Part shown: positions 12,253 to 45,534 of the stretch, piece after piece
Numbering within the stretch: position 1 is the stretch's first letter
Layout: the number at the start of each line of letters is the position of its first letter
From: a virus
DNA: 64,000 nucleotides
Virus record (IMG/VR): IMGVR_UViG_3300017987_000001
Coordinates: 62,001 to 126,000 of that record
Strand: one strand, 5' to 3'
Program-made: the position numbers and the translations under genes
Notes under the pieces: generated by a model
Told to the model about the DNA's origin: nothing
Databases searched by the model: none
Seen by the model: the letters and a program-made list of their open reading frames with translations, nothing else

Positions 12253-12897
12253 CTACTTCACCCACGCATCCTTTTTGGGCTTGCCCCAGCCAGCTGCCGG
12301 GCGCTTCTTCTTGGGAGTGCCCTTCAAGTGCTCGCGCCAATCCCCCGAGTGATAGTGCGTTGCGATTGCTCCGCTCTCGCGCTTCGCCGACTCCAAGAAT
12401 GCGTAGTGGAACCGGCACACGTTCGGGAACTTGCGCGTGACACGCTCCAGCGCGCAGCGAATCGAAGCTGGACGCGAGAGGAGAAGCTCTTTGCTGCGAC
12501 TGATCTCGTGAACCATTTCAGCAAGCCACGGGTGTCCGGGAGGGGCGCCGAAGCTCGAACTGGCGAGCATGTCGCGCGTGCGCTTCGATATGAACGCATC
12601 ATCCTCGCCCATGAACATCAGCAGGTTATCGATCGGCTGAAGGCATTCGATATCGCAGTCAAGGTAGATGCCGCCAAGCTGGTAGATGATCTCGAAGCGC
12701 GCAACGTCGGAAATCAGCACGGGATCATTGGTATCCATCACCCACGAGTTCAGAAGGTTCGGGAGATCTTCAGCCGACCAGAGCTTCACCCGCCACTCCG
12801 GGTTCTTCGTCACCCACGACTGAACGCAACGATGCTGTATGGCAGGCAGCTCGTTGTAGCCTTGCATCCAGATGAAGTGAACGATCTTCGGGATCAT
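12253..12897 (-). CDS. GT32-family glycosyltransferase
   Basis: A 214-residue protein of the glycosyltransferase 32 type (OCH1/capsular transferase fold, DXD sugar-nucleotide binding). It begins MIPKIVHFIWMQG, the family's N-terminal strand, and has VLISDVARFEIIYQLGGIYL followed by DCD (about residues 61-83), the hallmark S-D-x-x-R...GG-x-Y-x-D-x-D with DxD coordinating the metal and sugar nucleotide. The C-terminus is basic with PKKKRP and GKPKKDAW. It stands alone between a small baseplate-region gene and the beta-helix tail protein, with almost no spacing. Substrate unknown; a virion protein is my preferred guess because of the neighbours, host surface sugar is the alternative. Confidence 0.85.
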   Translation of the reverse strand: MIPKIVHFIWMQGYNELPAIQHRCVQSWVTKNPEWRVKLWSAEDLPNLLNSWVMDTNDPVLISDVARFEIIYQLGGIYLDCDIECLQPIDNLLMFMGEDDAFISKRTRDMLASSSFGAPPGHPWLAEMVHEISRSKELLLSRPASIRCALERVTRKFPNVCRFHYAFLESAKRESGAIATHYHSGDWREHLKGTPKKKRPAAGWGKPKKDAWVK

Positions 12898-12899
12898 CG

Positions 12900-13355
12900 C
12901 TATTCCTTCGGCAACGTACGAATGTCCATTGAGAAGTTCGCAAGCATAAGTCGCGCGTCCACCGGCTGAACGATAAGCCGCGTCAGGAAGCCCTCGGAAC
13001 TCTCGGAGCCGTACGTTGCGGTAACGACCTCTTTCCGTTGCGACGCTCTGTTCGCGTTGTAGTACGCGAACACTTCTTCGATGCCGTTCTGCCCCGGGTT
13101 GTTACATAGCCCGGCAAACAGTTGCCCGCGCACCGATACGTTCCCCATGAGATCGCCGAAGACGTACACGTAGACCGGGCCGCCCAGTGACGGCTGGAAC
13201 TGTACGTTCACCTGCTGACCCCACGAGACACTGTTGATCAGTCCCGCCATGAGATCGAAGGTCGGGCTGAATCGGATCTTCGCCGGAACGCCTCCGCCTC
13301 GGCAGATCTGCAGAGACGTGACGAGTCCTCTACGACATGTGAGAATCTCAGCCAT
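12900..13355 (-). CDS. Small tail or baseplate structural protein (151 aa)
   Basis: A 151-residue, beta-rich protein containing QQVNVQFQPSLGGPVYVYVF and GNVSVRGQLFAG (about residues 47-82) and ending NFSMDIRTLPKE. This looks like a small tail-tube-like or baseplate barrel protein, as found between tape measure and hub genes in many contractile tails. Its ATG overlaps the end of the tape-measure-like gene by eight bases. No family can be assigned firmly from sequence alone. Confidence 0.5.
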   Translation of the reverse strand: MAEILTCRRGLVTSLQICRGGGVPAKIRFSPTFDLMAGLINSVSWGQQVNVQFQPSLGGPVYVYVFGDLMGNVSVRGQLFAGLCNNPGQNGIEEVFAYYNANRASQRKEVVTATYGSESSEGFLTRLIVQPVDARLMLANFSMDIRTLPKE

Positions 13356-42524: not shown

Positions 42525-42537
42525 GGTTATCCCCCTA

Positions 42538-45534
42538 CTACGCTGACGACGAGCTGCTCGACGTCTCGCCGAAGAGCAATGTCGCGCTGTACACTCGTGC
42601 CTCCTCAGCGCCGTTCCCGCTCGCACGTCGAATCTGCACGTAGAATAGCGCCACTACGTCAGGAAGTACACCCAGCGTGAAGTCCGTTTGTATCGACACG
42701 ACGCCGGATACACCGGTCACCTCCGCGACCACGACGGCGTTTGTCGCGTCGTAGATCCTGACGTCGAGCGTCGCACTACCCGACGCTGCAACGACGAAGC
42801 GTGCGGCCGTCGGATCGCTTCCAATCTCATCATAGCCGCGATACGCGAACCCTGCGGCGTTCTGATACGTCGCCCGTCTCGTGCTATAGTACGGGTTCGC
42901 CCCGTCGTTGCACGAGATAATGATGTCGCCAACACCTGCACCGCCACCACCACTGCCGGTCGGACCCGTCGGCCCCGGGATGCCCGCGCCCGTGGGGCCG
43001 GTCGGCCCATCGTTGCCGTCGTTTCCGGTCGGCCCAGTGATCTCAGAAGGATCGCCAGTCGGTCCGGTGATAGTCGAAGGATCCCCGGTCGGTCCGGTGA
43101 TAGTCGAAGGATCCCCGGTCGGTCCGGTGATAGTCGACGGGTCGCCCGTAGGGCCGGTAATCTCAGAAGGATCACCCGTCGGACCGGTCGGCCCATCAGC
43201 GCCATCGTTGCCGGTCGGTCCCGTAACTGTTGATGCTTCGCCCGTGGGGCCGGTTGGCCCGTCATTGCCGTCACTGCCGGTCGGTCCCGTGATCTCGGAT
43301 GGGTCACCGGTCGGTCCAGTAATCGTCGAAGGATCGCCCGTCGGTCCAGTAATCGTCGAAGGATCACCGGTCGGTCCCGTGATGACAGACGGATCGCCCG
43401 TCGGTCCGGTGATAGTCGAAGGATCACCCGTCGGTCCCGTGATCTCGGATGGGTCACCGGTCGGACCTGTGACTGTTGAAGGATCACCCGTGGGGCCGGT
43501 ACTGCCATCGTCACCTGTCGGTCCCGTGATCTCGGATGGGTCACCGGTCGGACCTGTGACTGTTGAAGGATCACCGGTCGGACCCGTGATCTCGGATGGG
43601 TCACCGGTCGGACCGGTCTTGCCATCATCCCCGGTCGGTCCCGTGATTGTTGACGGATCACCCGTCGGCCCAGTGATCTCAGAAGGATCACCGGTCGGAC
43701 CTGTGATGATAGATGGGTCACCAGTCGGTCCGGTGATTGTTGACGGATCACCGGTCGGTCCGGTGATGACAGATGGGTCACCAGTTGGCCCCGTAATGAC
43801 AGACGGATCGCCAGTCGGACCTGTGATAACAGAAGGATCGCCAGTCGGACCTGTGATAACAGAAGGATCGCCAGTCGGACCTGTGATGACAGATGGGTCA
43901 CCAGTTGGCCCCGTAATGACAGATGGGTCTCCGGTGGGTCCGGTGATTGTTGATGGGTCACCAGTCGGACCTGTGATGACAGATGGGTCACCAGTTGGCC
44001 CCGTAATGACAGACGGATCACCGGTCGGTCCCGTAATGACAGATGGGTCACCAGTTGGCCCCGTAATGACAGAAGGATCACCGGTCGGTCCCGTGATGAC
44101 AGACGGGTCTCCGGTGGGTCCGGTCTTGCCATCGTCACCCGTGGGGCCGGTGACGGTAGATTCGTCGCCGGTCGGACCTGTGATGACAGATGGGTCACCA
44201 GTTGGCCCCGTAATGACAGAAGGATCACCGGTCGGGCCGGTGATCTCCGACGGATCACCAGTCGGACCTGTGATGACAGAAGGATCGCCCGTGGGTCCAG
44301 TATTGCCGTCGTCGCCCGTCGGCCCGGTTTTTCCATCATCGCCCGTCGGTCCGGTGACAAAGGAAGGATCGCCTGTTGGGCCGGTGTTACCCTTGTCGCC
44401 CGTCTTGCCGGTCGGGCCATCTTCACCAAGCTGGTCCCAGATCGCGCAACCGTTCGCATCGTAGCCCACGAGCACAAACGTGATCGGCGGGCTGACTGCC
44501 GTATTCGTCCAGATCGATCCGACGCCGAAGCCAGCCTCAGCATTGTCGTCACAACCGGGGTTGCGCGGTGCAGCAACGAGTCGCGCCATCGTCGGGATTG
44601 GCGGGCACGGCGGCGTCTCGTGACGGACACAGTTCTCGTCAATAATGATGAACGTGTCCGTCAGCTGATCCATCTGGTTGAGCGACTCAAGGAGGGCGCA
44701 GATGTCCTGCTTGATGTCCTGAACGCTCTTGTACAGCGTGTCGATGTCGCGGAAGACGAGGCTGAGTGAGAGTTTCCTGTAGTACGTATCGCGCGTGCGA
44801 TCGATGTCTTCAGGTACGTCTACTGGATACTCTTCTAGGTCAGCAGGCGAAGTGACATTGGAGAATTCATCATACTCCGCGTAGTTCGCGTCGAACTTGC
44901 GCTGGAATAGGAAGATCTCTTTAGGTAGGCCAACTGCCTCCGTGACTTCTATATCAACCCTATAACCTTGGGTTCGTCCGTCGACGAACACCTCCGGTTC
45001 ACAGATGTGTAGGGTGACTGATCGAGTTAGGGGCCAGCTCGAACTCGACAATGACGACGACGAGGACGAGTCGGGCGGGGACGGCGATGTCGTTGCACAC
45101 GTGTCAGTCTCGGGCGGGAGATCGCGCGAGATGATGATCGACTCGGTCGTCAGACGATCGAGCTGATTGAGTGTGCGCACCAGCTCGGCGATATCGTTCT
45201 GGATATCGGCGAGCGTGGATTCGAGCAGCTCAAGGCTTCGGAAGACCAGTTCGACTTCGGACTTCCGGAAGAAGACGCCGCCTTCGAGCGGCTCATCGAC
45301 CGGGTACTCCTGCAGATCAGCGGGCGATGCGATGTTCGAGAACTCGTCAATCGGCGTGCCGCCCGCCGGGTTGGGGCGCCGCTGGAAGACGAAGATGTTC
45401 TCGTTGACGCCGTAAGCTTCTTCGACCTCAAGGGTAAGCTTGTACCCCTGAGTGCGGCCAAAGACGTATTCTTCAATCGCGCCCTTACGGAGCTTGATGT
45501 AGCGCTGAGGCTGCTCGCTGCTGCTCGAAGGCAT
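42538..45534 (-). CDS. Collagen-like fibre protein with duplicated N-terminal domain
   Basis: A 998-residue protein. Residues 8-125 and about 170-310 are two copies of one domain, sharing [18 protein letters not shown] / [18 protein letters not shown], then [16 protein letters not shown], and a helical end with [14 protein letters not shown]. Ser tracts begin the protein and link the copies. Residues about 371-860 are a collagen-like region with GPT and GDP triplets interrupted at regular intervals by SxxT. The C-terminal 130 residues are a beta domain ending [10 protein letters not shown]. Collagen-like regions trimerise fibres. The gene has its own promoter-like site and a terminator upstream, so it is probably made at high level as a virion surface fibre. 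Confidence 0.75.
42955..44420 (-). repeat. Tandem repeat coding for collagen-like decapeptides
   Basis: Roughly 35 copies of a 30-base unit encode GPTGDPSxxT, with xx = VI, TI, EI or TV, broken by a few pure Gly-X-Y stretches such as GPTGDDGKT. Units are not identical in third positions. The unit of ten residues is not a multiple of three, so the Gly register shifts each time. Confidence 0.85.

Follow-up and report, generated by a model that had tools for sequence, protein, structure and literature searches.

Virion glycosylation by phage-encoded enzymes is established in mycobacteriophages (PMC12363180, PMC11256854), and so far it has been shown in a few of them, on the capsid and tail tube. 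The phages concerned include Che8, Corndog, and Myrna (Freeman et al. 2023, as reported in PMC12363180, PMC11256854, and PMC12619734). Another large aquatic phage lineage encodes several core glycosyltransferases with an unclear role (PMC12619734). Here we analyze a set of predicted sugar-, sulfate-, and methyl-handling enzymes in a 207,857-bp uncultured viral contig (IMG/VR record IMGVR_UViG_3300017987_000001), starting from a stretch of 64,000 nucleotides, hereafter the window, that corresponds to contig bases 62,001-126,000 and to the mid-portion of the phage genome. Part of this set is encoded among tail and fibre genes. The leading reading, to which we give about an even chance, is that these soluble enzymes decorate the phage's own virion proteins, the fibres first.

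The whole contig was read in overlapping pieces, together with 12 relatives of 162-224 kb. Genes were modeled by a codon-usage rule, which yielded 235 models in the contig; in the GC-rich relative G015 it picked wrong strands in places, so that the serine counts for G015 are less reliable. Coordinates marked "contig" follow the numbering of the 207,857-bp contig and those marked "window" the numbering of the 64,000-nt stretch.

The first-pass annotation of the window listed five group-transfer enzymes, all encoded on the minus strand. Four of these assignments hold, and the list proved incomplete, as most of the enzyme set lies outside the window. A GT32-type glycosyltransferase with a DXD sugar-binding region (window 12253-12897; PF04488, 5.7e-14) is encoded upstream of the gene for a 620-aa tail protein. 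The remaining genes form a cassette. It includes a class I S-adenosylmethionine-dependent methyltransferase (window 27246-27803), for which the Pfam match is weak (0.006) and tblastn finds annotated phage methyltransferases (best 9e-21); its homolog in mycobacteriophage Phrappuccino adjoins three glycosyltransferases. The GT4-type glycosyltransferase (window 28542-29606) matches PF00534 (9.2e-17) and, among PDB sequences, GT4-type enzymes including 2jjm. Between these two genes, a 250-aa protein (window 27790-28542) had been labeled DUF115-like; this label is not confirmed, and the protein has no match to PF01973 at E<=10. It belongs to no known family, with no match in Pfam, PHROG, or NCBIfam and no phage homolog, and its lone-sequence fold (pLDDT 31) is uninformative.

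The last gene of the cassette encodes a small predicted 3'-phosphoadenosine-5'-phosphosulfate (PAPS) sulfotransferase (window 29728-30309). Its Pfam score (0.0044) is below the cut-off, and its profile finds nothing credible among PDB sequences, so that the assignment rests on the motif and the fold model. The GCGRSGT motif is invariant in 11 aligned homologs, the fold model has pLDDT 86, and the first 17 PDB matches are all PAPS sulfotransferases, with modest TM-scores of 0.37-0.57. The modeled protein thus has both the fold of a sulfotransferase and, near its N-terminus, the phosphate-binding motif GxGRSGT.

Family matches outside the window add at least 13 further enzymes predicted to synthesize, transfer, methylate, or sulfate sugars, and bring the contig total to at least 17 predicted sugar-, sulfate-, and methyl-handling genes, many of them next to genes for the tail and for host-binding fibres. 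The region at contig 48.6-51.7 kb encodes two GT9 and one GT8 glycosyltransferases. The cluster at contig 145.8-157.9 kb comprises two NAD-dependent epimerases, a UDPG/GDPM dehydrogenase, a GT2 glycosyltransferase, a GT9-like gene just under the cut-off, four methyltransferases (one of the FkbM type), and a second sulfotransferase. Five more genes of these clusters (contig 51,695, 52,384, 148,733, 151,073, and 152,764), for which Pfam gives no match, are candidates by position and appearance only. The most widely kept enzyme is the GT9 protein encoded at contig 48,599, which in many relatives consists of two parts, one of them GT2-like; in the relatives that were read, its gene is found near the fibre N-terminal gene or near genes of proteins with serine tracts. 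In two relatives, a fusion of a GT4 glycosyltransferase with a methyltransferase (G002, 33,491-35,470; G012, 194,279-196,138) is encoded between the GT9-type gene and structural genes with serine tracts. A third relative, G007, contains at 65,645-72,181 a cluster of three weak sulfotransferase-like genes, a GT2-like gene, and two oxygenase-looking genes.

The order of structural genes around the window enzymes is conserved in the relatives. At the same places, none of the 12 relatives has a counterpart of GT32 or of the enzymes at window 27246-30309, and none has an ortholog of the methyltransferase, the 250-aa protein, or GT4 at all. One distant homolog each was found for GT32 (in G017) and for the sulfotransferase (in G021), both at other places. 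Scans of viral contigs with two single proteins, GT4 and the protein encoded at 50118-51638 of the window phage, gave no match. Judging from this distribution, the five window enzymes are accessory inserts in variable modules, the second of which also contains fibre and spike genes.

This second module, in which enzymes and fibres form one variable unit within the conserved structural block, is on the minus strand in all genes listed here. Its conserved edges are a neck-region protein (window 26282-27142) and an 81-aa protein ending in SSSSA (window 45655-45900). Besides the cassette, it contains a fibre-like virion protein whose gene immediately precedes that of the sulfotransferase (window 30351-31367; weak PHROG tail-fibre matches, 1.3e-5), a virion structural protein (window 33087-34736; phrog_10356, 4.5e-58), a right-handed beta-helix protein resembling tail spikes (window 38490-42626; PF13229, 3.8e-57; tail spike PHROG, 7.5e-25), and a 998-aa tail fibre (window 42538-45534; tail fibre PHROG, 1.9e-18). 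Such an association in one variable module is expected if the enzymes tune the outer surface of the virion, which might serve masking, protease resistance, or receptor binding.

The strongest link is seen across diverse phages, in which sulfotransferase genes tend to follow genes of fibres or adhesins directly, as they do in the window. In four relatives (G002, G012, G004, and G010), a Sulfotransfer_3 gene is located downstream of collagen-like or YadA-head-like fibre genes. A profile built from these four genes identified 269 IMG/VR relatives, of which 80 loci were kept. A protein was called fibre-like if Gly, Ser, Thr, Asn, and Ala together made up at least 44% of its residues, a rule that was set after inspection of the upstream sequences and hence was not blind. 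By this rule, 27 of the 35 non-redundant upstream neighbors of at least 200 aa are fibre-like, compared with 4.6% of 1,441 proteins of the lineage. In a control restricted to the same loci, fibre-like genes were found directly upstream of the sulfotransferase in 25 of 34 cases and among the other genes in 53 of 219 (odds ratio 8.7, p 4e-8, uncorrected for kinship). Independently, PHROGs and Pfam name several of the upstream genes as tail fibre, collagen-like tail, lectin-fold, or baseplate receptor-binding proteins. Some upstream neighbors are clearly of another kind, such as a major head protein, and in 21 of the 80 loci the sulfotransferase is not immediately preceded by a gene on the same strand. 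Collagen-like fibres as such were rejected as the linked partner: they occur within 5 kb in just 7 of 50 loci, compared with 18 of 218 random windows, and therefore the link is carried by a broader class of fibres and adhesins. Several of the linked fibres (L373-L452) have a similar C-terminal domain despite differing shafts; a similar domain is also present on G012 fibres with no adjacent sulfotransferase.

Two cyanophages in culture, S-SKS1 and S-SRM01, encode just upstream of the sulfotransferase a repeat protein rich in Gly, Ser, Thr, and Asn, and in cyanophage S-SCSM1 the upstream gene encodes an endonuclease. No paper linking phage sulfotransferases to fibres was found in the literature, in a search that was thin on subscription journals. 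The window has a similar layout, with the fibre-like gene followed after 41 bp by the sulfotransferase, but the window enzyme belongs to another subfamily. A general link of that subfamily to fibres was rejected, as elsewhere its genes adjoin those of glycosyltransferases and methyltransferases. Tentatively, and with more doubt than confidence, we suggest that sulfation of a phage's own receptor-binding fibres, or of the glycans that these bear, by a fibre-linked phage sulfotransferase is found in many tailed phages and would be a common means of tuning virion surfaces, and that the window phage adds glycosylation and methylation.

The first-pass annotation proposed that the window enzymes decorate the phage's own surface proteins. 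The large soluble enzyme set, its partial location among tail and fibre genes, and the sulfotransferase-fibre linkage are consistent with this proposal; its further suggestion that serine tracts serve as acceptors fared worse, as described below. For the substrate, the sequence of reactions, and the gain to the phage, we infer the following scheme. The phage enzymes would make nucleotide sugars and would transfer, methylate, and sulfate glycans in the cytoplasm of the infected cell; the targets would be the phage's own tail fibres or adhesins, and perhaps other exposed virion proteins. Glycosyltransferases would place sugars on Ser or Thr, and methyl and sulfate groups would then cap the glycan.

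The main rival, clearly less probable than decoration of the virion, is that the enzymes remodel host surface glycans (lipopolysaccharide, capsule, or their precursors), so that superinfection is blocked or the receptor is altered, with the fibre link arising through the receptor. Phage glycosyltransferases are well known to bring about seroconversion, a link to receptor-binding genes is what this reading would predict as well, and nucleotide-sugar enzymes suit polysaccharide synthesis. However, by a crude hydropathy scan none of 23 enzymes and candidates has a transmembrane segment, and no more than two are predicted in any contig protein. The contig thus encodes no flippase, polymerase, or Gtr-type membrane transferase, and the host would have to provide these. 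Soluble enzymes in a contig with no multi-span membrane protein argue against a self-sufficient host-surface system, and in having glycosyltransferases with no membrane export partners the contig is as expected of a phage virion glycosylation system.

Several observations weigh against decoration of the virion. The host could supply a flippase or an export route. Of the sugar clusters, the larger one (contig 146-158 kb) adjoins the portal gene and not the fibres, and the subfamily of the window sulfotransferase is found elsewhere beside glycosyltransferase and methyltransferase genes rather than fibre genes. The best viral fold match of this enzyme is a part of a giant-virus "capsular polysaccharide synthesis protein", which points to glycans. 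Finally, the p-values for the fibre link are uncorrected for kinship, and fibres were recognized by nothing more than a simple rule on composition.

Modification of phage DNA bases by the glycosyltransferases and methyltransferases, as a protection against restriction, is very improbable. Sulfotransferases and nucleotide-sugar dehydrogenases are, to our knowledge, outside known DNA-modification schemes, which counts against it. Neither thymidylate-synthase-type nor TET/JBP enzymes were found in the window phage or in nine relatives, which argues against the commonest routes, although DNA modification by phage glycosyltransferases is known to occur (Pyle et al. 2024, as cited in PMC12619734).

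Serine runs in many virion proteins, noted in the first-pass annotation, are a genuine feature of the contig. Its 235 gene models contain 21 runs of at least four serines, compared with 0.64 expected from composition; within-protein shuffles (n=500) gave a mean of 0.87 and a maximum of 5. All 21 are found inside the 28% of the proteome that is encoded at contig 53-108 kb and corresponds to the tail, neck, and fibre block. Replication slippage was ruled out as their origin, because the runs draw on all six serine codons with no excess of identical neighboring codons (14 of 82, compared with 17 expected). Glycine runs are likewise common in the contig (19, compared with 2.3 expected).

The runs (given below as S followed by the number of serines) are encoded on the minus strand in all window genes described here. 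S5 is found in a 629-aa tail-block protein (window 278-2167) at residue 311, in the 620-aa tail protein (window 10389-12251) at residue 341, and in the tail sheath (window 21363-24278; PHROG tail sheath, 1e-10) at residue 448. The neck protein at the module edge has S4 at residue 53, but a second neck protein (window 25392-26282), also listed in the earlier annotation, has no run of four or more. S9 is found in an 88-aa protein (window 31358-31624), S4 in a 140-aa protein (window 45912-46334) and in the 81-aa edge protein, and S4, S6+S4, and S6 in the 998-aa fibre.

Many of these tracts are located at domain joins or C-termini. In the 620-aa protein, the tract (residues 341-345) joins the conserved domain to an additional one at the N-terminus: all 12 relatives match solely within residues 364-620, and their counterparts are mostly free-standing proteins of about 260 aa. 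In the 998-aa fibre, two copies of the same N-terminal domain (residues 13-132 and 183-292) flank the tract at 156-166, and the shaft, made of a GPTGDPSxxT decapeptide in 36 perfect copies, is followed by a poly-Ser C-terminus. In a 555-aa protein encoded at contig 58,209, serine runs at residues 305-316 follow the part (about 1-293) common to most relatives. The sheath insertion, of 5 to 13 serines, occurs in the window phage, G002, G012, and G015; six other aligned homologs lack it. The tract of the 629-aa protein has a similar position in G002 (residue 307, S12) and G012 (residue 314, S13), and SSSSA or a similar sequence forms the C-terminus of several contig proteins. At contig 56,297-62,265, five adjacent structural genes encode proteins that start with a common N..R.YPL-type motif, most of them with serine tracts. 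The simplest reading is that poly-Ser tracts of this clade look mainly like flexible linkers or tails of virion proteins. It is preferred because relatives with none of the five window enzymes keep the tract sites, and because the tracts are found at domain joins or C-termini.

That these enzymes have their dedicated acceptors in the serine tracts and in the fibre's Gly-Pro-Thr units is unlikely, more so than host-surface remodeling. The tracts may receive sugars, but nothing requires it. Their confinement to proteins of the virion block would fit such a role. The earlier annotation had named relatives with the same tracts and none of the enzymes as evidence to the contrary: G002 and G012 have tracts at the window-phage sites and no ortholog of the five window enzymes, yet they encode other glycosyltransferases, and the comparison is therefore only partly of that kind. 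Co-occurrence was analyzed in 50 long sheath-bearing relatives, with a GT9-type gene (present in 26) standing in for the five window enzymes; runs within 10 kb of the sheath were counted at three length thresholds, uncorrected for kinship. Runs of at least four were found in 12 of 26 GT9-bearing relatives and in 3 of 24 others (Fisher p 0.014, at this one of the three thresholds), but the difference fades for runs of at least five (7/26 and 2/24, p 0.14) and at least six (6/26 and 1/24, p 0.10), and 14 of the 26 GT9-bearing relatives have no run of four or more near the sheath. The Che8 capsid, which is reported to be glycosylated (PMC12363180, PMC11256854), has no serine run; therefore, such runs are not needed for virion glycosylation. 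In the fibre shaft, the Gly-X-Y register is broken every ten residues. Among the ideas of the first-pass annotation, that of serine tracts as acceptors is not supported, and decoration of virion proteins, the fibres first, is the preferred reading.

By its RNA polymerase, 31-32% identical to those of Salmonella phage Arash and Vibrio phages D69, D181, and D148, the window phage is a distant relative of Arash, and at least 154 IMG/VR stretches are related to the contig on the same basis. A near-DNA search among phages gave no match, and a search for the host, in which the sheath profile was compared with genome contigs, gave none either. A single 1,832-aa protein (contig 135,427-140,925) is a fusion of RNA polymerase beta with the N-terminal part of beta-prime and holds a weak 2H-phosphoesterase-like insertion; the remaining part of beta-prime is encoded by a separate gene (contig 127,628-129,490), and both genes are outside the window. 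This split and fused layout is common to Arash, the three Vibrio phages, and many IMG/VR contigs. The portal-like protein (contig 157,903-160,677) contains an intein-like insertion (PF14890, 7.8e-5) that its homologs of ~620 aa in the relatives lack. A sigma-70-like factor is encoded amid the tail genes (window 7920-8702) and is kept in the relatives.

If the fibres are indeed glycosylated, methylated, and sulfated, the host-binding surface of such phages would depend on enzymes and not on sequence alone, with implications for the reading of host range from genomes and for phage annotation. The sulfotransferase-fibre linkage provides a specific, testable gene pair, with homologs in cultured cyanophages S-SKS1 and S-SRM01.

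Comparison with described systems shows both shared and distinct features. Arash-like phages have a related RNA polymerase, but, unlike the window phage, Arash and D69 contain neither the GT9 gene nor enzymes of PF00534, PF00535, PF13469, PF04488, and PF01370. Gtr-type seroconversion of the O-antigen also depends on phage-encoded glycosyltransferases, but no multi-span membrane partner was found in the window contig. The 998-aa fibre had been compared with Bacillus BclA. It is similarly exposed and rich in Gly-Pro-Thr (53 units), but it is built of a decapeptide repeat, in which no more than 8 Gly-X-Y triplets follow one another unbroken, and is not a long continuous collagen, and the comparison does not carry over; true (GVT)n fibres, of up to 78 triplets, are found in relatives and not in the window. 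The sulfotransferases of cyanophages S-SKS1, S-SRM01, and S-SCSM1, for which the papers found report no function, are homologous (29-34% identity) to the fibre-linked enzymes of the relatives, and that of the window belongs to another subfamily. Another parallel is virion glycosylation in mycobacteriophages, where soluble phage-encoded glycosyltransferases likewise act in a tailed phage and where the distant Phrappuccino homolog of the window methyltransferase has its glycosyltransferase neighbors. There, glycans have been demonstrated on the capsid and tail tube, whereas the window phage is known from its genes, which add to this scheme sulfotransferases, nucleotide-sugar enzymes, and linkage to fibres.

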